Origin: Phascolarctobacterium faecium DSM 14760
Lineage (GTDB): Bacteria; Bacillota; Negativicutes; Acidaminococcales; Acidaminococcaceae
Reading direction: 5' to 3'
DNA length: 64,000 bases
Assembly: GCF_003269275.1 (NCBI RefSeq)
Contig: NZ_QLTS01000004.1
Coordinates: 1 to 64,000 of the forward strand
Position 1 is the stretch's first letter; each line of letters begins with the position of its first letter. The notes under the pieces were generated by a model. The model saw nothing but the letters and a program-made list of their open reading frames with translations, was not told the DNA's origin and did no database searches. Position numbers and translations under genes: made by a program. This document shows, piece after piece, positions 51,249 through 56,004 of this stretch.

Positions 51249-52667
51249 TTACAGGCGAAAATCACGTTCGCCGTTTTCGATATCTGTCAAATGCTGTATA
51301 ACCAGTTCACGTACTTTGGGATTGGGGATATTGGCCAGTTCATTTTGAATGAGCTTTTCGCCAAGCTCTTTAGTATGTGGCTTAGCATAGTCGGTCAAAT
51401 ATTCTTTGAGTGTCATCAGTGCGTTTGGATGACAGCAGTTTTGGATCTGACCGCTTTTGCATAAACTCATAAAACGGTCGCCAGTACGACCCTGACGATA
51501 GCAGGCTGTACAGAAACTGGGCAGATAACCGATTTCCATCAGCCAGGCTACTACTTCATCAAGGCTGCGGGTATCGCTGACATCGAATTGTGCTGAGTTT
51601 TCAGCTTCCGGTTCAGGTGCGGCATAACCGCCGACACTGGTGCGCGAACCGCCGCTGATTTGTGAGATTCCCAGATGCAGCACACGTTCGCGTGATTTTT
51701 GACTTTCGCGGGTAGAAACGATCATACCTGTATAGGGAACAGAAATACGGATGCAGGCTACAAGCTTGGCAAAAATATCATCGTTGATGCTGTTATTAAA
51801 GGCGTTGGGATCGATATCGTCAGCAGGGCAGATACGCGGAACGCTGATAGTGTGCGGGCCAACTCCGTGCACTGCTTCCAGATGTTCGGCATGCATTAAA
51901 AGACCGGTAAATTCATAACGATAAAGTTCAAGCCCAAAGAGTACGCCAAGTCCCACATCATCGATGCCGCCCTGCATAGCTCTGTCCATGGCTTCCGTAT
52001 GGTAGGCATAGTTGCTTTTAGGTCCCGTAGGATGTAATCGTTCATAGCTTTCTTTGTGGTAGGTTTCCTGAAAAAGTATATATGTGCCAATACCGGCTTC
52101 GTGCAGTTTACGATAATTTTCGACACTGGTTGCGGCAATATTGACATTAACGCGGCGAATGGCGCCGTTTTTGTGTTTGATGCTGTAAATAGTTTTGATG
52201 CTTTCCAGAATATAATCCAGTGGATTATTTATCGGGTCTTCACCTGCTTCCAAAGCCAGGCGCTTATGTCCCATATCCTGAAGTGCGATAACTTCGTTGC
52301 GGATTTCATCTTGAGTGAGTTTTTTTCGGGTGATGTTTTTGTTTACACTGTGATAAGGGCAATAAACGCAGCCGTTAATACAGTAGTTTGAAAGATATAA
52401 CGGCGCAAACATAACGATGCGGTTGCCGTAAAAATCTTTTTTGATCTGTTCGGCCAAAGCAAAAATTTCCTGATTTTTTTCATCAAGCTCACAGTCTAAA
52501 AGCACGGCAGCTTCGCGGTGTGAAAGTCCCTTGCGTTCCTTTGCTTTAGCAATAATACTGTCGATAAGCGACGCATTATTTTTGTTTGCTGAGGCATAGG
52601 CAAGGGTTTCCAGGATTTCATCATGAGCAATGAACTCACTGGCTTGCATTGATTTGACATTATACAT
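51249..52667 (-). CDS. hydG: [FeFe] hydrogenase H-cluster radical SAM maturase HydG
   Basis: A 472-aa radical SAM enzyme that cleaves tyrosine to make the CO and CN ligands of the H-cluster. The radical SAM cluster motif is CINGCVYC (residues about 95-102, CxxxCxxC), and the C-terminal auxiliary cluster is provided by FCTACYRQGRTGD and the following LCKSG and NCCHPN cysteines. Length is standard. It implies an [FeFe] hydrogenase elsewhere in the genome; hydE and hydF are not in the window. It lies 67 bp after a TM1266-type regulator gene on the same strand. Confidence 0.95.
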   Translation of the reverse strand: MYNVKSMQASEFIAHDEILETLAYASANKNNASLIDSIIAKAKERKGLSHREAAVLLDCELDEKNQEIFALAEQIKKDFYGNRIVMFAPLYLSNYCINGCVYCPYHSVNKNITRKKLTQDEIRNEVIALQDMGHKRLALEAGEDPINNPLDYILESIKTIYSIKHKNGAIRRVNVNIAATSVENYRKLHEAGIGTYILFQETYHKESYERLHPTGPKSNYAYHTEAMDRAMQGGIDDVGLGVLFGLELYRYEFTGLLMHAEHLEAVHGVGPHTISVPRICPADDIDPNAFNNSINDDIFAKLVACIRISVPYTGMIVSTRESQKSRERVLHLGISQISGGSRTSVGGYAAPEPEAENSAQFDVSDTRSLDEVVAWLMEIGYLPSFCTACYRQGRTGDRFMSLCKSGQIQNCCHPNALMTLKEYLTDYAKPHTKELGEKLIQNELANIPNPKVRELVIQHLTDIENGERDFRL

Positions 52668-52734
52668 TTGTCTACCTTCTTTCTTTCGGGGCAGGAATCC
52701 TTTCCCGTCAGTGATTTCCCTTATATATAAATAT

Positions 52735-52998
52735 TTAAAAGGGCTGTTCTTGCGGAGTTTTTGCGTATAAAGCCTTGACGCTTACTCCTTTGAGCATACC
52801 TATTTTGCCGGAAAGCGTACTGATAACGTCGGCCGGGGCATCAAGAACGATACTGATAATATTAATGCCTTTTTGTTTATATGGCAGTCCCATACGTCCA
52901 ATAATATATTCGTTATGGGCATGCAGTAAAATATTAAGCTGTTCTACTGCGGCAGTATTTTCAACGATTATTCCCAGCAAGACGACACGTTTCTGCAT
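52735..52998 (-). CDS. TM1266-family hydrogenase-associated regulator
   Basis: An 87-aa ACT/NikR-C-like protein: KRVVLLGIIVENTAAVEQLNILLHAHNEYIIGRMGLPYKQKGINIISIVLDA, followed by STLSGKIGMLKGVSVKALYAK. It fits the TM1266 family that accompanies [FeFe]-hydrogenase genes and is called a putative regulator. No DNA-binding domain is visible. Start chosen at ATG 52998 behind AGGTG; a longer frame opens at 53016. Operon with hydG. Confidence 0.82.
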   Translation of the reverse strand: MQKRVVLLGIIVENTAAVEQLNILLHAHNEYIIGRMGLPYKQKGINIISIVLDAPADVISTLSGKIGMLKGVSVKALYAKTPQEQPF

Positions 52999-53007
52999 AC
53001 AAGCACC

Positions 53008-53469
53008 TGCTTTCAAGACAAAATAACTGATTTATTAGTATTATATCATAAAATATCTGTAATTATTATTAACGAACAAGAGGTTATAACTAAAAGATAA
53101 AAAATAATTGCGAAAATTAACACAAACAGAATAAAAGTGCTATAATATATGAAGTAAGATTAAAGCAATGGTATCAAAAGTTACAAAAAATATTGCTCTA
53201 ATTATTTTATTACATGGCGTTTATTTTTGAAAGCCAGTGAAGATTTTTATGTCAGGCAGTATCTGCAGGTAAGTAAAGTGCCGCTGCCGCCAATAATACA
53301 AGGATAGGGGATGACTATCGGTATAGGAGTTTTGTTATTTACATCGTCAATCTGACCGGCATAATTAGATTTGTTGAATCTTTTTGAATTGTTGTAAATC
53401 GTGCTCAGGCTGTTTAGACATATGTTTTCTATAAAATTTCATTAGGTGTTTTTATAATGTTATTTTAGC
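53008..53469. other. Gene-free stretch
   Basis: About 460 bp with no intact ORF. A TATAAT-like box (53141-53147, gctataatat) may start a plus-strand transcript. Around 53215-53370 short stretches read protein-like in shifting frames (for example ending IVNLTGIIRFVESF), which could be a decayed gene; I cannot name it. Confidence 0.3.
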
Positions 53470-53579
53470 AAATAAAAAAGGTGACCGTCAATGAGAGCCG
53501 AACCCTCTCGTTGACGGTCAAATGATTGGAAAAAGATTAAAGGAAGACTAATGTCCCAAGCAAATGTCTCGTTTGCTTT
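53470..53579 (-). ncRNA. Candidate small RNA, activated by the adjacent CRP/FNR regulator
   Basis: On the minus strand a TATAAT (53591-53586) lies 41.5 bp from the centre of the palindrome at 53613-53628, measured to the predicted start near 53579. The RNA would begin with a hairpin (AAGCAAA-CGAGACA-TTTGCTT), continue with a C/U-rich single-stranded part (GTCTTCCTTTAATCTTTTTCC), and end with a 16-bp stem (TGACCGTCAACGAGAG / CTCTCATTGACGGTCA) followed by six T. No ORF with a ribosome-binding site is seen. This is the architecture of a trans-acting sRNA; expression is unproven. Confidence 0.55.
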
Positions 53580-53628: not shown

Positions 53629-53789
53629 CGAATAAATTTAGAAAATAATATCATAATAAAGTAATTAAAGTAAGTTTGAATAAACAAGAAACACAAATTA
53701 TAATAAAAACAAATCAAGGGCATATTAAATAGGAAGAAACTTATTTGTTTTATTTAGATGATTGAGAGTAAGAGAGAAGGAGGACAGTT

Positions 53790-54464
53790 ATGAAAGCGGC
53801 AATGCAGAATCTTTTGAGTTTACCCTTGTTCAAAGGGTTAGCCAGCGATGAATTAGACACTATTCTTGGTAAAGTAAATGCCCTTGTTAAGCATTTTGAA
53901 AAATCAGACTATATTTATTTGGCCGGTGATGCGGTTGAGAGTATTGGCATTGTTGTAGCGGGTACTGTACAAATGATCAAGGAAGATATTATGGGAGATA
54001 AGTCCATTATCACAACAATGGGGTCTGGTTCCATTTTTGCCGAAAACTTCCTGGGGCATGACAAACAGGACGAGAAAACTAATGTTAGCTACTTTGCTGC
54101 CAGTGACAGCGAGGTGCTGATGGTCCCCTTTGGGAAGGTTCTGACCGATCTGAGTAATAATGATCCCTGCCGTAACAAATTGCTGACAAACATGATTTCA
54201 ATAATGGCCAGCAACAATGCACAGTTGATTGAAAAAACGGAGATCTTGTGTAAAAAAACTCTGCGCGGCAAGATTATGACTTATCTAGAACAGGAAGCTA
54301 AACGTAACGGTTCTACTGAATTTGAAATACCTTTTAACAGAACGGATATGGCCAATTATTTGGATGCTGACCGCAGTGCTTTGACTCGTGAACTGGCCAG
54401 AATGAAAGATTGCGGATTGATTGATTTTGATAAAAGAAATTTTAAAATTTTAAAGTTTGAATAG
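53790..54464 (+). CDS. CRP/FNR family transcriptional regulator
   Basis: A 224-aa regulator. Residues about 10-125 form the cyclic-nucleotide-binding-like beta roll (FEKSDYIYLAGDAVESIGIVVAGTVQMIKED), followed by the dimer helix (about 130-155) and a winged HTH (about 165-224, FNRTDMANYLDADRSALTRELARMKDCGLIDF). The cAMP signature (RxSL in the roll) is absent and there is no N-terminal Cys cluster as in FNR, so the effector is unknown. AGAAGGAGGAC precedes the ATG. Two matching palindromes flank it, one upstream and one before the SLC13 gene, making both likely targets. Confidence 0.9.
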   Translation: MKAAMQNLLSLPLFKGLASDELDTILGKVNALVKHFEKSDYIYLAGDAVESIGIVVAGTVQMIKEDIMGDKSIITTMGSGSIFAENFLGHDKQDEKTNVSYFAASDSEVLMVPFGKVLTDLSNNDPCRNKLLTNMISIMASNNAQLIEKTEILCKKTLRGKIMTYLEQEAKRNGSTEFEIPFNRTDMANYLDADRSALTRELARMKDCGLIDFDKRNFKILKFE

Positions 54465-54581: not shown

Positions 54582-54624
54582 TGTTGCCTAGGCAACATCA
54601 TTTTGCATTTACCATTGCTATAAT
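54582..54624 (+). promoter_or_regulatory. CRP/FNR-type operator (copy 2) and promoter of the SLC13 gene
   Basis: TGTTGCCTAGGCAACA (54582-54597) is a perfect 16-bp palindrome. A TATAAT lies at 54619-54624, and the -35 position (CATCAT) is poor. With the start at about 54631, the palindrome is centred at -41.5, the geometry of a class II CRP/FNR-activated promoter. The leader to the start codon is about 100 nt. Confidence 0.72.
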
Positions 54625-54729
54625 GTAAATTAATAAAGGGATTGCTAAACTTGTAGTTCCTTTGCGATCTTTATATGTTGTCCGACAATTCGAACAGCAT
54701 ATAGAAAATTTAAAAAGGAGGAATTTATT

Positions 54730-56004
54730 ATGTCCCAAGCAGTAAAATGTTTAATTCTGTTGGCTGTGGTTGCATTGCTTTTTGTTACTGAACTTATCCC
54801 TCTCGCAATCACTGCTACTGCCGGCGCAATCGCGTGCGGCCTGTTAGGCTTCATCCCTGCTAAACAAGTCTTTTCCGGTTTGTCTAACTCTACGGTAGTT
54901 TTGTTTGCAGGTATGTTCATCGTTGGCGCAGCAATGTTCTATACCGGTTTGGCCCAAAAAATCGGTAATACTGTAGTTCATTTCTGTGGTACTGGCGAAA
55001 ACAGCCTGATGTTTGGTTTAATGATAGTTGGTACTTTGTTGTCTTCAGTACTTTCCAATACTGGTACAGCAGCTTGCCTGCTTCCGGTTGCTTTGGGTAT
55101 CTGTGCTGCTGCAAAGATTCCTGCTTCCCGTCAGTTGATGCCTTTGGCGTTCGCTTGCGGTTGGGGCGGTATCATTACGATGGTAGGTACACCGCCTAAC
55201 ATTATTGCTACCGGTGCTTTAACTGCTGCAGGTTTAGAAGGGTTTGGTTTCTTTGAATTCGCATGGATCGGTATTCCTGTATCTATCGCAGGTATGCTTT
55301 ACATGATGTTCATTGGTAAACATTTACTTCCGAAAGTTGAATTGGATGCTGACCAGGAAATCGAACAAGAAGTTGAAGCTACAACTACTTCTTCTTCCAA
55401 ACAAATCATTTCCGGTGCGATTCTGCTCGTAGTTGTTTTGGTAATGGCTTTGGATATCAAAGGCGTTTCCCTGGAAATGGCAGCTATCATCGGTGCATTG
55501 GTTTGCGTACTGACTGGTTGCTTGACTGAAAAACAAGCTTACGCTTCTATCGACTGGGTAACCATCTTCCTGTTCGCAGGTATGATGCCTGTATCCACTG
55601 CAATGGATAAAACCGGCGCTGGTAAATTGATCGCTGAATGGACCGTAGGTCTGATGGGCGGTTCTCCGTCTCCGTTGATCGTTACCGCAGTTCTGTTTAT
55701 CCTGTCTTGCGGTTTGACCCAATTTATGTCCAACACTGCATCCGCAGCTCTGCTGTGCCCGATTGGTGTTGCGATTGCTAAACAACTTGGCGCCGATCCG
55801 AAAGCAGTTATCATGGCTATCGCAGTTGCAGCATCCTGTGCATTCGCAACTCCGGTAGGTACTCCTCCGAATACTTTGGTTCTTGGTCCTGGCGGTTATA
55901 AATTCATGGACTATGTTAAAGCAGGTACCGGCCTTGTTGTCGTCTGCTTCGTAGTATCCCTGGTTGTAATTCCTGTTATTTGGCCGTTCTTCCCTGGCAA
56001 ATAA
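54730..56004 (+). CDS. SLC13/DASS family carrier
   Basis: A 424-aa carrier with about 11-12 helices. Both SNT motifs are present (LSNTGTAACLLPV and MSNTASAALLCPI), each followed by a GTPPN loop (MVGTPPNIIA; PVGTPPNTLVL), as expected for Na+-coupled dicarboxylate or sulfate symporters. Codons are strongly biased compared with neighbours, suggesting high expression. A C4-dicarboxylate such as succinate is an attractive guess if the organism is Phascolarctobacterium-like, which lives on succinate, but this is inference. AAAAAGGAGG precedes the ATG. Preceded by a CRP/FNR palindrome. Confidence 0.88.
   Translation: MSQAVKCLILLAVVALLFVTELIPLAITATAGAIACGLLGFIPAKQVFSGLSNSTVVLFAGMFIVGAAMFYTGLAQKIGNTVVHFCGTGENSLMFGLMIVGTLLSSVLSNTGTAACLLPVALGICAAAKIPASRQLMPLAFACGWGGIITMVGTPPNIIATGALTAAGLEGFGFFEFAWIGIPVSIAGMLYMMFIGKHLLPKVELDADQEIEQEVEATTTSSSKQIISGAILLVVVLVMALDIKGVSLEMAAIIGALVCVLTGCLTEKQAYASIDWVTIFLFAGMMPVSTAMDKTGAGKLIAEWTVGLMGGSPSPLIVTAVLFILSCGLTQFMSNTASAALLCPIGVAIAKQLGADPKAVIMAIAVAASCAFATPVGTPPNTLVLGPGGYKFMDYVKAGTGLVVVCFVVSLVVIPVIWPFFPGK

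Follow-up and report, generated by a model that had tools for sequence, protein, structure and literature searches.

A conserved putative small RNA beside a CRP/FNR-type regulator gene in Phascolarctobacterium, predicted to shut off translation of succinate-type transporters

A conserved and previously undescribed putative small RNA (sRNA) is encoded beside a CRP/FNR-type regulator gene in Phascolarctobacterium faecium DSM 14760, and is predicted to shut off the translation of succinate-type transporters by pairing at their start codons. The locus is located in the window analyzed here, i.e., the first 64,000 nucleotides of contig NZ_QLTS01000004.1. In the reading that we favor, with a probability of roughly 70%, the regulator activates the sRNA plus some genes for DASS (SLC13) carriers, and the sRNA acts in trans to silence DASS paralogs, above all those devoid of the regulator's palindrome, and would thereby serve as a carrier switch. 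The active regulator would bind TGTTGC-N4-GCAACA at −41.5 and turn on the sRNA together with the palindrome-bearing carrier genes; the sRNA of approximately 105 nt, probably assisted by Hfq, would use GAGACAUUU, UGCUUGGGACAU, and a CU-rich stretch to pair with the Shine-Dalgarno sequence (SD), the start codon, and early codons of DASS mRNAs and would block ribosome binding there. The effect would be strongest on palindrome-free paralogs, several of which stand beside the gene for the beta subunit of a Na+-pumping decarboxylase, and the net outcome would be the replacement of one dicarboxylate carrier set by another. Translational repression is proposed because the paired region spans both SD and AUG; transcription of the sRNA, regulator binding, DASS repression, and their physiology are what we infer from the features described below.

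P. faecium makes hardly any use of carbohydrates and lives on succinate that other bacteria of the gut release. Candidates for the uptake of succinate are two of its DASS carriers, whose expression values were much larger in co-culture, and a highly expressed DASS gene is numbered directly after the gene for a sodium-pumping decarboxylase beta subunit (PMC7568257). Together, regulator, operator, and sRNA offer a possible explanation of how such bacteria select between carriers that are nearly identical. No description of an sRNA in the Phascolarctobacterium group emerged from literature searches.

The sRNA locus was first noted in a preliminary description made from the letters of the window, and its architecture was confirmed (Table 1): the minus-strand TATAAT with a poor −35, the palindrome 41.5 bp from the predicted start, and the 5′ hairpin and strong terminator all lie where they had been placed. 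The fold has an energy of −33 kcal/mol (z = −5.1), which none of 200 shuffled sequences equaled. The window contains two copies of GTTGC-N4-GCAAC, where 0.025 would be expected, one in the sRNA promoter and one, as had also been pointed out, upstream of the SLC13 carrier gene, and the gap between palindrome and TATAAT is 22 bp in both promoters. In the CRP/FNR superfamily, −41.5 is where the site of a class II activator is normally centred. The RNA had been described as without coding potential, in agreement with the lack of a conserved open reading frame (ORF); an 87-aa ORF on the minus strand, which begins upstream of the sRNA promoter, matched nothing in Pfam or NCBIfam. The sRNA thus combines its own promoter and an intrinsic terminator with no conserved ORF, and this architecture of promoter, RNA, and terminator is conserved. 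Furthermore, an AT-rich repeat resembling AATAAAGTAATTAAAGTAAG is conserved near both divergent promoters (53655-53674 in the window; upstream regions of loci L005-L007, L044, and L053) and might be bound by a second regulator. In the window, the sRNA adjoins HydG and a gene of TM1266 type (51249-53016), which serve [FeFe]-hydrogenase maturation and regulation and are not its neighbors in the relatives.

Table 1. Features of the sRNA locus and of the neighboring carrier gene, in window positions.
Feature	Position	Strand	Remarks
sRNA	53472..53579	minus	~105 nt; predicted +1 = 53579; fold z = −5.1; conserved in 9 genomes
sRNA promoter −10, TATAAT	53591-53586	minus	no good −35
Palindrome TGTTGC-N4-GCAACA, TGTTGCCTCAGCAACA	53628-53613, centre 53620.5		−41.5 if +1 = 53579
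5′ hairpin AGCAAA-CGAGACA-UUUGCU	53577-53559	minus	identical in 8 genomes
Pairing block 1, GAGACAUUU	53562..53570	minus	complementary to DASS codons 6-8: AAAUGUCUC, or AAAUGUUU with G-U pairs
Pairing block 2, UGCUUGGGACAU	53551..53562	minus	perfect 12-nt complement of the DASS start AUGUCCCAAGCA, first four codons
Pairing block 3, UCUUCCUUU	53539..53547	minus	complement of the DASS Shine-Dalgarno AAAGGAGGA, one G-U; from sequence and cofold
C/U-rich stretch of sRNA	53547-53528	minus
Intrinsic terminator stem	53520-53482	minus	compensatory changes in relatives
Six-U tract ending the sRNA	53479-53474	minus
CRP/FNR-superfamily regulator gene	53790..54464	plus	divergent from sRNA; Pfam cNMP_binding and HTH_Crp_2
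Second palindrome, before DASS carrier	54582..54597 (core 54583-54596)		22 bp from TATAAT 54619-54624
Predicted sRNA site in carrier mRNA	54714..54752	plus	SD 54714-54722; AUG to codon 4 54730-54741; codons 6-8 54745-54752
DASS/SLC13 sodium:dicarboxylate-type carrier, predicted sRNA target	54730..56004	plus	TIGR00785 209.8 bits, cut-off 198.6; pairing energy

The preliminary description named no target; DASS carriers as predicted targets are an addition of the present analysis. The sRNA, encoded apart from them, is predicted to pair at their translation starts through three blocks (Table 1). In the genome, GAGG-N3-10-ATGTCYC, i.e., the target motif with the spacing of an SD, occurs at five sites, four of which are DASS starts. 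The Watson-Crick run with the sRNA is longer at the neighboring DASS start than at any other of 403 sampled gene starts, and in interaction energy this start is second, after the mRNA of the regulator itself; these starts came from a 400-kb sample plus the window, approximately 20% of one genome. Duplex energies computed without folding cost separated targets poorly, whereas cofold differences and contiguous runs did separate them. In the cofold analysis of 30 DASS starts in eight testable genomes, at least one DASS start per genome beat all 200 background starts, which were drawn from the sample of one genome, and the best-scoring DASS start lacked the palindrome in seven of the eight; neither paralogs nor species count as independent tests, because the DASS start is itself a conserved protein-coding sequence. 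Comparison of palindrome-free with palindrome-bearing paralogs as groups gave p = 0.053, which leaves the idea of a paralog selector suggestive only. Some of the strongest predicted targets adjoin the gene for a sodium-pumping decarboxylase beta subunit, and an hfq gene is present in the genome. Of the seven DASS starts scored in the window's genome, four are predicted to be strong targets and three pair poorly with the sRNA; two palindrome-bearing carriers are well-paired predicted targets, which would constitute an incoherent feed-forward loop in this genome. At least eight DASS genes or fragments of the same subfamily are found there (G000:C1:791135-794272 and contigs C4, C5, C7, C8, C13, and C15), several at contig ends; the set looks like a recent expansion.

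The alternative that survives best, although with a much smaller probability, is that a real, regulator-activated sRNA acts mainly on other mRNAs, or stabilizes DASS mRNAs, the DASS complementarity being a relic of the RNA's origin. Many purine-rich SDs can pair with its C/U-rich stretch, the mRNA of the regulator has the top score in the window's genome, and exchange of sRNAs between genomes revealed no systematic advantage of native pairing, a result that also provides no evidence for lineage-by-lineage co-evolution of sRNA and target. Nevertheless, DASS starts rank top in eight of eight genomes whereas the regulator mRNA does not, taking rank 15-180 of 200 when used as a control in seven relatives, and the conserved GAGACAUUUGCU and GGG-CAU blocks of the sRNA coincide with the DASS-complementary blocks. 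The regulator mRNA was accordingly rejected as a conserved target, its high score being confined to the window's genome; here, its purine-rich start (53755-53819) could pair with the C/U-rich stretch, and a local feedback loop is possible.

The gene divergent from the sRNA had been called a CRP/FNR gene, an assignment that holds at the level of the superfamily, PF00027 and PF13545 both scoring above cut-off with matches in the PDB as well, although by model score the protein is neither an orthodox CRP (PRK11753, 22.6 bits against a cut-off of 266) nor an orthodox FNR (PRK11161, 43.5 bits against 228). No cysteine occurs in its first 120 residues, and the N-terminal [4Fe-4S] cysteines of FNR are missing. 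Orthologs 46-65% identical to it came from the genome search, whereas a protein scan of genome contigs gave none; the helix-turn-helix stretch LDADRSALTREL hardly varies across 13 orthologs, nor does the recognition helix. The palindrome, previously labeled CRP/FNR-type, has the half-site TGTTGC, which is not that of CRP (TGTGA) or of FNR (TTGAT), and on this point the earlier label was corrected. The 16-nt palindrome is present in all 13 genomes that carry a close regulator ortholog (at least 46% identity) and in 6 of 28 without a regulator match, counts in which genomes are phylogenetically non-independent. Of the ten GTTGC-N4-GCAAC sites in the window's genome, five precede DASS genes, one precedes the sRNA, and one is upstream of a ResA-like gene. 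The last lies between a gene for a NapH-like ferredoxin and that for the ResA-like thiol-disulfide protein (G000:C10:42467, L019), possibly a further member of the regulon.

Activation of the sRNA by the divergent regulator, which we infer from the class II position of the palindrome, would fail if a different protein bound the site and the adjacent CRP/FNR gene merely shared the intergenic region. We consider this slightly less probable than action on other mRNAs. One or two palindromes occur in six genomes without a detected regulator, and 51-106 in three genomes that have only a distant relative (approximately 31-32% identity); the presence of the site in 13 of 13 close-ortholog genomes, the −41.5 position, and the retained synteny speak for the divergent regulator. 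The three genomes rich in TGTTGC-N4-GCAACA belong to the same family (G029, G023, and G062, with 106, 62, and 51 copies, respectively), their congeners have none or few, and the copies belong to a large regulon or, alternatively, to a repeated element. In genus g15, the regulator ortholog is preceded by a response-regulator-like gene. The preliminary interpretation as a regulator-activated sRNA is supported.

A DNA search of 61 genomes matched the hairpin segment in several genera, and the exact 19-mer was found in seven contigs titled Phascolarctobacterium sp.; letter-for-letter copies of the 19-nt hairpin are present in 8 of 59 genomes of the family, the window's genome included, which represent four genera. 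A ninth genome, from a fifth genus (G016, L044), carries a diverged copy at the same locus with the 3′ half of the hairpin, GAGACATTTGCT, kept. The palindrome and a −10-like hexamer accompany all nine copies at a constant distance of 28-29 bp from palindrome centre to −10; the hexamer is exactly TATAAT in six, and TAAAAT, TACAAT, or TAAACT in the remaining three. The regulator ortholog is divergent from the sRNA in eight of the nine; G021, an assembly 73% complete, has the sRNA with neither regulator nor DASS gene detected. Loss of the hairpins beside a conserved regulator had been named as evidence against the sRNA; hairpin, promoter, and terminator were found retained with a divergent regulator in eight genomes of four genera. 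Two genomes (G027 and G072) keep the regulator and lack the sRNA beside its gene, so the regulator-sRNA pair is lineage-limited.

Covariation in both hairpins had likewise been proposed as a check. The 5′ hairpin is invariant in eight genomes; among the relatives, one compensatory pair (A-U to G-C) was found in a second hairpin and two compensatory A-U/G-C pairs in the terminator. This second hairpin, with the loop ACCUC or UCUUC, occupies the place of the C/U-rich stretch and is lost in the window's genome; the unpaired stretch described earlier is a feature specific to this genome. A covariance model built from six relatives recovers the window's copy at 53 bits and gave no further convincing member in 63 genomes of the order; weak hits L138-L150 were rejected owing to the absence of an upstream palindrome, except for L140, the sRNA of G016. 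Rfam, including the FnrS and Spot 42 families, gave no relevant match at gathering cut-off or at E up to 5.

On its plus strand, the sRNA locus can be aligned to the starts of DASS genes along 40-50 nt that comprise SD, start codon, and codons 1-9, with a 4-nt gap. For two of the five paralogs tested, the score is higher than that of any of 200 shuffles, and two more are near or equal to the maximum. A locus without any sRNA, i.e., a decaying duplicate of a DASS start or a plus-strand leader ORF before the regulator gene (AAAGGAAGACTA-ATG-TCC-CAA-GCA...), would account for this likeness and for the reading MSQANVSFA. We regard it as improbable, since that frame contains a stop in G032 and a shift in G016, the promoter, palindrome, and terminator of the minus strand are conserved and accompanied by compensatory changes, and the 5′ arm of the hairpin, AGCAAAC, is invariant in eight genomes and absent from DASS starts. 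Least credible is an attenuated 5′ leader of a downstream minus-strand gene: a TM1266-like gene (53016-52735) does follow on the same strand approximately 460 bp downstream, but the terminator hairpin ends the RNA in every genome, and the sRNA is not a leader of its neighbor because the far-side gene differs between genera and is reversed in orientation in some.

The alignment with DASS starts suggests that the start of a target gene, copied and inverted, gave rise to the sRNA, although selection for pairing could yield the same pattern. In G025, where no sRNA was detected, one hit of the covariance model falls on the strand antisense to a DASS start (L148). A more extended scenario, advanced tentatively and with considerable doubt, is that the sRNA gene originated as an antisense copy of a start region in its target family, came under a shared activator, and may now act as a paralog selector, with palindrome-bearing DASS genes on and palindrome-free, often decarboxylase-linked ones silenced. 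In its likeness to the antisense strand of the genes that it is predicted to target, the sRNA departs from the pattern described for E. coli, where the sRNAs predate their target sites (PMC4114697).

The preliminary description had likened the locus to the pairs CRP/Spot 42 and FNR/FnrS; the comparison holds better for FnrS than for Spot 42. In E. coli, FNR activates FnrS, an sRNA of approximately 100 nt, which acts on the start regions of mRNAs to repress them. In both systems, by prediction here, an activator of the CRP/FNR superfamily drives a repressing sRNA; the present RNA differs in the absence of an Rfam match, the operator TGTTGC-N4-GCAACA, a regulator without the N-terminal cysteines of FNR, and predicted targets that belong to one paralogous carrier family. 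Spot 42 is also a trans-acting sRNA that ties a CRP-type regulator to carbon uptake. It is lowered by CRP in E. coli and Salmonella, with a 12-fold rise in a Salmonella crp mutant (PMC5991649), whereas the operator here is at an activator position, which makes FnrS the better functional parallel. VcdRP of Vibrio cholerae is a CRP-controlled RNA that inhibits the expression of carbon transporters by base-pairing (PMC8672173); it is CRP-repressed, codes for a protein of 29 aa, and has PTS genes as its targets, whereas the sRNA here has no conserved ORF.

Near-copies of the hairpin, AGCAAAC-NGGACATTTGCT, were found at L040 (1282-1347), L041, L042, and L037, in G068, G026, and G016. They are one or two letters off the sRNA hairpin, the changes being in the loop, lack palindrome and terminator, and were rejected as family members: the likeness is one of hairpins, and the RNA is not the same. 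The near-copies in L040 and L037 are located downstream of an AdoCbl riboswitch.
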